From positions 1 to 64,000 of the forward strand of contig NZ_JACHXD010000002.1 of the NCBI RefSeq assembly GCF_014191875.1: a stretch of 64,000 bases of DNA, in the 5' to 3' direction. Every line of letters begins with the position of its first letter. Position 1 is the stretch's first letter. Positions 62,529 to 64,000 of this stretch are shown piece after piece. This stretch comes from Pseudoduganella violacea (GTDB lineage: Bacteria > Pseudomonadota > Gammaproteobacteria > Burkholderiales > Burkholderiaceae_D). The notes below the pieces were generated by a model. It saw nothing but the letters and a program-made list of their open reading frames with translations, was not told where the DNA came from and made no database searches. A program made the position numbers and the translations under genes.

Positions 62529-62544
62529 CTGTATATAAATACAG
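62529..62544 (-). promoter_or_regulatory. LexA (SOS) box of dnaE2
   Basis: CTGT-ATATAAAT-ACAG, a perfect CTGT-N8-ACAG palindrome 17 bases before the dnaE2 start. Indicates DNA-damage induction of dnaE2. Confidence 0.92.
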
Positions 62545-62853
62545 TATTTTAGCAGTGCCTCCTAGACTCGCAAGTCTCGCAGCGGACTCCCAACTCAAGA
62601 ATTGTTCGCCACTCTCTTCTTCAGTCTGATGGCATTTCAACTACTTCGTGAAGATCAGAAAAGCCACTTCTCAGCTGGGCTGGAGTAACTGAAAGGGTTT
62701 GATCCGTTTGGCAACTATAAATTTTTACCAACTGCAAACTTACCAATAGAGCCTTCCCTAATGAGACGCGATGCCCCTTAGGTATGCACTGGCATTCTTC
62801 GTTGAACGTGTTGTATTAGGTCTAGTAATGCTCCTGCTGCTTGCTAAGCACTA
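62545..62853. other. Non-coding stretch between dnaE2 and the retron
   Basis: About 310 bases, AT-richer than the core. No open frame, tRNA or repeat is evident. A weak TTGAAC/GTAATG promoter-like pair occurs near 62802-62830. It separates the chromosome-like dnaE2 from the AT-rich retron, so an insertion boundary may lie here, but no attachment site is recognisable. Confidence 0.4.
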
Positions 62854-62882
62854 TTGCCAATGTGCTACAAAACCGCTATGCT
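62854..62882 (+). promoter_or_regulatory. Candidate promoter of the retron RNA
   Basis: TTGCCA at 62854-62859, a 17-base spacer and TATGCT at 62877-62882. Transcription would begin near 62889, inside the a1 segment, so the RNA's true 5' end may be shorter than the pairing suggests. Confidence 0.5.
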
Positions 62883-63059
62883 AGATCTACCTTACGCGTG
62901 GGACAGATTTATTTTTTGTCCTTGTCGGGCGTTTAGCCAGACACGAATTTATTGAGGATATTTAGGTTGCGTTAAAGGCTTGCCTAACGCTCCCTCGATA
63001 CCCCACCTCGCGATCGTTAGTCAAGCCTTTAACGCATCCTTTAGGTAAGGAAAATCTGG
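62881..63059 (+). ncRNA. Putative retron msr-msd RNA (type II-A like)
   Basis: Pairing ends: 62881-62895 (ending GATCTACCTTAC) with 63045-63059 (starting GTAAGGAAAATC), 13 of 15 positions pair including one G-U. After a1, G residues in ACGCGTG offer a branching guanosine as in Eco1. The msr then has two hairpins: GGACA/TGTCC (62901-62921) and GTCxGGC/GCCxGAC around GTTTA (62924-62942). The msd is a long stem, TGCGTTAAAGGCTTG (62968-62982) with CAAGCCTTTAACGCA (63022-63036), extended inside by CTAACG/CGTTAG. The order and sizes match retron RNA, and the a2 start GTAAGG matches that of Eco1. The reverse transcriptase is not in the window. Confidence 0.75.
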
Positions 63060-63060
63060 G

Positions 63061-63087
63061 CGGCCTCCTTGTGGAGGCCGTTTTTTT
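63061..63087 (+). terminator. Rho-independent terminator between retron RNA and effector
   Basis: CGGCCTCC-TTGT-GGAGGCCG followed by seven T. It follows the a2 segment directly and would separate the abundant RNA from the lower-level effector mRNA, or give read-through control. Confidence 0.9.
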
Positions 63088-63096
63088 AAGGGCGAG

Positions 63097-64000
63097 ATGA
63101 AGAAGTTTGAGGATAAGTTAATTGCAGAGTTCCAAGACTTCGAGCATGAAAAATTTCATGTTTCATTCATGCCGCCTAAAGTCTTCCTCTGCGGAGGCGA
63201 GGTTGACATTAAAGCAACTATCCCTAAAAGCCTCCGAGACAGATTAATTACTCATTTCTCTGCTCATGAAGATGAGCTTCATGATTCCCGAATTCAAGCA
63301 GAGGATTTCAAAGATTATTTTAAAGAAGGTGCATATTCCGATCTACTGGAGTTTGAGACGGACATCGCAAACATTGCAACTTTAATAGTTATTTGTTTGG
63401 AAAGCGCTGGCTCACTTGTCGAGCTTGGCCTTTTCTGCATGGCCCCTACTACAGCATCGAAGCTTCTAATAATTGCGCCACAGGCAGAACTCGCAGGTGA
63501 AGATTCCTTCATCTTTCTCGGGCCACTAGATCACATTAAGCGTAACAATCCAGATGCTGTTGTGGCGTATCCTTGGCCATCTTCTGACGTACTCGAATAT
63601 GAGCATATTGAGCTCGTGGTTGGCGACATCAAGCAGAAGTTAGAAAAAATGAAGAAAACTCAGAAGTTTTCCGAAAATAATTCTGCTCACATTGCTTTTC
63701 TTATTTACGACGTAATTATACTTGCTGAATCCATTACAATCACGGAAATCGAATATACCCTCTTGGCATTTAAATTAGAGATCGATGGAAAAACAGTAAG
63801 CAGACTTCTATACCTACTCGAAAAGATTGGCCTGATTGCGCATACTGTATATAGCAACGTAATCTACTACTTTGACACACCGGGTTCTACGAGAAGAATT
63901 AAGTTTGGCACGGATACCAAGGGGCGGACACGAGACTCGCAGGCATTGACAATGGCGCTAAGATCCGCTTACACCGCAGATAATGATGAATCATCTAAGA
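63097..64000 (+). CDS. Retron effector: nucleoside-deoxyribosyltransferase-like protein, 3' end cut by the window
   Basis: 301 codons are open to the window end with no stop. The Eco1 (Ec86) retron effector is of similar length, so only a little is missing. NDT-like domain in the N-terminal half: PKVFLCGGEVD (residues 27-37), the LEFETDIANIATLIVICLE region, ESAGSLVELG (102-111) holding the likely catalytic glutamates, and SFIFLGPLDHIKRNN. The C-terminal part (about 195-270) looks like a winged-helix DNA-binding region (AHIAFLIYDVIILAESITI, TLLAFKLEIDGKTVSRLLYL), as in the Eco1 effector. By analogy it is held inactive by RT and msDNA, and acts on nucleotides or DNA when phage disrupts that complex. 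GC content is far below the neighbours. Confidence 0.85.
   Translation, partial: MKKFEDKLIAEFQDFEHEKFHVSFMPPKVFLCGGEVDIKATIPKSLRDRLITHFSAHEDELHDSRIQAEDFKDYFKEGAYSDLLEFETDIANIATLIVICLESAGSLVELGLFCMAPTTASKLLIIAPQAELAGEDSFIFLGPLDHIKRNNPDAVVAYPWPSSDVLEYEHIELVVGDIKQKLEKMKKTQKFSENNSAHIAFLIYDVIILAESITITEIEYTLLAFKLEIDGKTVSRLLYLLEKIGLIAHTVYSNVIYYFDTPGSTRRIKFGTDTKGRTRDSQALTMALRSAYTADNDESSK

Follow-up and report, generated by a model that had tools for sequence, protein, structure and literature searches.

Judged by sequence, the nearest characterized relative of the locus described here is Retron-Sen2 (St85) of Salmonella, in which STM3845 is the effector and STM3846 the reverse transcriptase (RT), and not Retron-Eco1 (Ec86). 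We take STM3845 to be the protein called RcaT. Retron-Sen2 has been termed a tripartite toxin-antitoxin system (PMC11555353), and for Sen2, Eco9, and Eco1 it is reported that the NDT-type accessory proteins are toxic, that the full operon neutralizes them, and that msDNA length depends on RNase H1 (PMC8989520). A reference title in PMC11555353 credits Eco1 with hydrolysis of NAD. The STnc400 RNA of Salmonella is placed between STM3844 and STM3845 (PMC2515195).

The window, which is the whole stretch of DNA that was analyzed (64,000 bases), corresponds to bases 1-64000 of contig C2 (585,834 bases) in a genome of 6.25 Mb. Its right end carries an RNA-like region and a terminator-like hairpin, followed by a reading frame that opens at 63097, and only the first half of the retron lies inside the window. 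The preliminary description had read this end as a type II-A retron and had named the absence of an RT downstream as one finding that would refute it; the RT is in place. The locus is very probably a complete retron of type II-A, belonging with St85 (Retron-Sen2) and made up of a noncoding RNA (ncRNA), a terminator, an NDT-like effector, and an RT, in which the RT-msDNA complex would hold the toxin inactive. We hold this view because the RT stands downstream, because both proteins exceed the cut-offs of curated families with II-A as the top PADLOC call for each, because the msr and STnc400 families match end to end with compensatory pairing and an RNA model that recovers most related loci, because the effector precedes the RT in nearly all of those loci, and because the predicted effector fold is closest to that of Eco1, with the catalytic-residue motif aligned. 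The three components lie on one strand (+) in the order ncRNA, effector, RT, which is the type II-A layout; the two genes overlap by 4 bases (ATGA), and the RT starts 50 bases beyond the window end. Features are as follows (window positions equal C2 positions; a position in the locus sequence L002 plus 59999 gives the C2 position).

62555 to 64000, no strand: left part of an inserted cassette; three relatives are homologous in the flank as far as 62554 and again from C2:65243
62854 to 62882, plus strand: promoter-like site (TTGCCA, 17 nt, TATGCT), 9 of 12 matches
62887 to 62960, plus strand: msr portion of the retron RNA; match to Rfam RF00170 (msr) at 46.8 bits and E 4.4e-7 (gathering score 52)
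62890 to 62895, plus strand: a1 arm, 6-pair core, pairing with a2 in the single fold and in the consensus
62896, plus strand: putative branching (priming) guanosine, the first G after a1; GCG after CYTTAC in 7 of 7 aligned RNAs
62900 to 62922, plus strand: msr hairpin 1, from folding; both-side changes in 2 of 7 pairs
62923 to 62943, plus strand: msr hairpin 2, arms TGTC-GGC / GCC-GACA, from folding and alignment
62962 to 63092, plus strand: msd portion with a2 and terminator; match to Rfam RF02058 (STnc400) at 53 bits and E 3.2e-9 (gathering score 80)
62964 to 63040, plus strand: msd stem, the msDNA template; inverted repeat with 29-nt arms (62964-62992 with 63012-63040), 90% complementary
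63045 to 63050, plus strand: a2 arm, pairing with a1 in fold and consensus
63061 to 63087, plus strand: terminator-like hairpin plus seven T in the gap between RNA and effector, from folding
63097 to 64000 (continuing to C2:64053), plus strand: effector gene of the St85 family with an NDT-like domain, 318 aa, ATG at 63097; NF038232
C2:64050 to 64991 (L002:4051-4992), plus strand, beyond the window: RT, 313 aa; PF00078, NF038233

The RT is the sole PF00078 match in the genome (E 1.6e-23) and scores 327.1 bits against NF038233, the NCBIfam family of St85 RTs (cut-off 235); PADLOC ranks RT_II-A first at 383 bits, with RT_I-A 5 bits behind at 377.7. Retron RTs are recognized by the motifs YADD, NAxxH, and VTG, the names used in the preliminary description, and all three are read in the translation (NAxxH as NALRH), which makes this a retron RT. 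Its nearest solved structures are the RTs of Ec78 (E 7.5e-77, 262 bits) and Ec83 (E 3e-74), which bound a set of six close matches, three of them without a retron number; the Ec86 RT follows at E 1.3e-26 and 97 bits. By scores, as distinct from a tree, the RT thus falls outside the Ec86 branch. Because it is far nearer to the Ec78 and Ec83 RTs than to that of Ec86, we place the locus with St85 rather than with Eco1, and each protein also scores above its NCBIfam St85 cut-off.

The effector reaches 238.5 bits against NF038232, the NCBIfam family of St85 effectors (cut-off 100), and 268.8 bits against PADLOC NDT_II-A. Its homologues are listed with PF28093; a Pfam scan gave no family over cut-off in the copy scanned, which we count against the preferred reading. 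The motifs FLCGG and ESAGSLVELG, from which the frame had been likened to the NDT-like effector of Eco1, are present and both align to that protein. Among solved structures, a sequence search finds only the Ec86 effector, at E 8.9e-6 with the single sequence (residues 28-169) and at E 1.4e-17 with a 45-sequence profile (the query plus 44 of the best 120 of 182 homologues) over positions 3-195; that the match stops at 195 is a point against. The likeness extends to the predicted model (mean pLDDT 89.3, pTM 0.89): three PDB matches have E <=0.001 among the best 50 of 877 at E <=10, and all are Retron-Eco1 effector chains (E 3.4e-10 for the match to the Eco1 effector), with TM 0.50-0.58 and 18-20% identity, a moderate match that is also counted against. 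MilB CMP N-glycosidase and winged-helix repressors appear as weak structural matches (E 0.03 and above). From these weak matches the C-terminal part may resemble a winged helix, and the protein would then combine an NDT-like domain with a DNA-binding (winged-helix) C-terminus in the manner of type II-A effectors. The title of one Eco1 PDB entry identifies E106A as an inactive effector; in the alignment the counterpart of E106 is E109 of our protein, which is invariant in 45 of 45 sequences. V106 of RcaT-Sen2 and T105 of RcaT-Eco1 are taken as adjoining the active site (PMC12405559), and T105 is the residue just before E106 in RcaT-Eco1.

The folding energy of segment 62881-63096 is -89.9 kcal/mol, whereas shuffled versions average -59.3 (z -6.4) and none of 200 falls this low; the fold contains the a1/a2 arms, two msr hairpins, and long msd stem that had been proposed from the letters. 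The RF00170 and RF02058 matches run end to end. Both lie below gathering score, at which the window has 0 Rfam matches, the two retron families surfacing at an E-value threshold; this we count against the preferred reading. Weaker matches of other families, in the msd hairpin and elsewhere, were set aside as chance, and antisense STnc400 matches as a product of the stem's self-complementarity. An outer extension of the a1/a2 helix (62881-62886 with 63054-63059) is present in the single fold and absent from the consensus. In studied retrons the RT primes from a guanosine at the position taken here for the branch, and by that analogy 62896 is the probable branching guanosine.

Pairing is kept in homologous loci. 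When 26 related loci were scanned with the two Rfam families at E 0.01, msr and STnc400 were both found upstream of the effector in four (L003, L012, L022, and L028); L004 and L006 gave a match to STnc400 only, and the remaining 20 loci gave none. The seven RNAs with Rfam matches, own included, were aligned for covariation; the resulting consensus comprises 4 helices with 49 pairs, of which 14 show compensatory changes, and 93.5% of its cells are paired. The msd stem contributes both-side changes in 10 of 28 pairs; the a1/a2 helix (helix 1) is paired in 100% of cells, with such changes in 2 of 7 pairs; and all 7 pairs of msr hairpin 2 are invariant in the seven sequences, so that covariation neither supports nor opposes it. 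None of 500 shuffles reaches the covariation score, which is 0.249 against 0.059-0.083 for slid controls, in a comparison of only seven sequences where the counted structure derives from the same alignment and is thereby favored over its slid versions. A covariance model built from the seven loci and searched at E 0.1 matches 33 of 46 loci (weakest L008, 0.015), including 26 of the 39 not used to build it, and recovers loci without a match in the Rfam scan; the 13 loci that it does not match count against the preferred reading, and six extra rows are antisense matches of the stem. The RNA therefore has the paired a1/a2 arms, msr hairpins, and msd stem of a retron ncRNA, all kept in relatives. 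The effector is followed by the RT on one strand in 42 of the 46 loci, the misses being L020, L026, L033, and L037. The 46 include L039, which equals L028 in score and protein matches, and one place twice (L026 and L033); 37 of 83 loci were omitted, namely six own or repeated places, one second gene piece, and 30 loci retrieved by way of the neighbor gene.

From the promoter-like site, transcription would begin at a1 or immediately upstream of it. Such sites number 7 in the stretch against 5.4 expected, which makes one weak evidence alone; by eye, a similar spacing before a1 is seen for TATGCT in L012 and for TACAAT in L003 and L006. The terminator of the preliminary description is there on folding, although a mechanical scan for promoters and terminators, which found no excess over shuffles, missed the hairpin at 63061-63087. 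All 7 aligned loci show, by eye, a hairpin separating a2 from the effector, and in four (own, L003, L006, and L012) it comes with at least six T. The sizes given for the Salmonella STnc400 RNA, approximately 55 nt plus a faint 190-nt band (PMC2515195), agree with an RNA that ends ahead of the effector gene. A terminator in this position may set the dosage of the RNA over the toxin. It is a rather doubtful extension of this idea that the effectors of the St85 branch act on a substrate other than that of Eco1 and that the terminator gives an excess of RNA (antitoxin) over toxin, a dosage control common to the branch.

We envisage that the ncRNA would be transcribed and its a1 arm would pair with a2, whereupon the RT would prime from the guanosine just after a1 and copy the msd stem into a branched msDNA, predicted at some 75-90 bases. 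By analogy with Sen2 and Eco1, the RT-msDNA complex would bind the effector and keep it inactive, interference with the complex by a phage would free the effector, and the freed effector might attack a nucleotide of the cell or a comparable N-glycosidic bond, so that growth stops.

The locus resembles Retron-Sen2 in passing the St85 cut-offs, in its msr and STnc400 halves, and in the order of its parts; it differs in host group and in many msd bases unlike the STnc400 consensus, and the likeness is measured through family models rather than by direct alignment. With Retron-Eco1 it shares the NDT-like effector fold, the ESxGSxxELG motif, and the type II-A layout. An Eco1-like (Ec86) II-A retron whose effector forms NAD-cleaving filaments would account for this fold and for the catalytic Glu motif, but is very improbable, given an RT with 262 bits to that of Ec78 against 97 to that of Ec86, an effector only 18-20% identical to that of Eco1 in structural alignment, and family models that fit from St85. 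Ec78 and Ec83 supply the nearest named solved RTs; Ec78 itself differs in being a type I-A retron with PtuAB as effector (PMC11555353).

The preferred reading, a complete retron of the St85 kind, can also be set against decay and against other functions. An AT-rich insert that the three nearest relatives lack here could be a decayed or silent remnant, yet neither frame is interrupted or shortened, the RT has all its motifs, and the invariant effector residues and RNA pairing are kept; we regard a remnant as extremely improbable. A role other than phage defense, either slot stability as a toxin-antitoxin pair or regulation by msDNA, is unlikely and is in any case not exclusive with the preferred reading; St85 msDNA is reported as necessary for intestinal colonization by Salmonella (PMC4569332), whereas protection against phage is reported for Eco1, Eco4, and Eco9 (PMC8989520).

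STnc400 is listed as a small RNA; set beside RF00170 (msr), it appears to correspond to the msd half of the RNA in St85-type retrons. Effects of STnc400 on fitness or bile resistance have been described in papers whose main text does not contain the word retron (PMC12767474, PMC6435676). We considered whether the link to retrons was unreported and rejected this, since PMC12757443 calls a Cronobacter St85 retron from msr plus STnc400.

The cassette comprises 2,688 bases (approximately 2.7 kb) between a minus-strand gene that we take from its sequence to be dnaE2 and a phzF-like gene (PF02567 match). Its GC content is 42.2% against 61.2% and 62.7% in the flanks, in line with the AT-rich block noted before. 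The flanks are 85-94% identical to those of the three nearest relatives (L041, L042, and L043), and the identity breaks exactly at L002 position 2555 and resumes from 5244; no direct or terminal repeats were found at the cassette ends. These relatives lack the retron insert and carry at the same site a different one of approximately 790 bases. A frame in the L041 insert, the one scanned, matches DUF2335; a similar frame is present in L043 and a shorter one in L042. Neighbor-protein matches occur in 67 of 74 genomes of the genus, from which 30 loci, own included, were fetched; in all 29 others dnaE2 lies <=1.2 kb from the phzF-like gene, a gap too short for the retron. The slot seems to be a variable site occupied by small inserts that are richer in AT, the presence of smaller inserts having been compared in L041, L042, and L043.

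With the own genome counted each time, effector relatives were found in 6 of 74 genomes from the genus, 14 of 294 from the family, and 6 of 369 from a class sample; in another two family samples the figures were 6 of 198 and 7 of 201, and NF038232 was matched in 8 of 398 genomes of a phylum sample (6 over cut-off) and in 0 of 14 controls. Among the best 120 of 182 homologues in protein collections, the closest effector is 92% identical. The suggestion of an undescribed member far from Eco1 stands insofar as this is a new member, and needs amending in that St85/Sen2 is its nearest relative and close relatives are already in sequence collections; the picture of retrons is unchanged. A literature search on retrons in Massilia or Oxalobacteraceae, which did not extend to the 2020 classification tables, returned by title none about this locus. 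The locus offers a clear member of the St85 branch from outside the enteric bacteria, with defined RNA and insertion site, of value for effector comparison and for retron tools in such hosts. One genome of the same family (G301) has a homologue in which effector and RT are each 68% identical and the RNA aligns end to end; it differs in an adjoining frame that by eye looks like VgrG. Within the genus, G034 holds two separate divergent retrons with such an effector (L007 and L011).

Related retrons are found on mobile elements. Phage and plasmid searches gave only relatives of <60% identity (3 and 4 records), and scans of genome and viral contigs, within reach of close relatives only, gave 2, 1, and 2 loci. 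The retron of L029 lies on PfAC04, a filamentous Pseudomonas phage (Inoviridae); that of L028 adjoins ogr/Delta-like and phage polarity suppression genes, and that of L022 has C4 antisense and isrK RNAs close by. Just ahead of dnaE2 in our locus, at window positions 62529-62544, is a LexA-like box, CTGTATATAAATACAG. It is the sole occurrence of the pattern in the window, yet 36 of 100 shuffles contain at least one; L041 and L043 have the identical box, and that of L042 shows a single-base difference.
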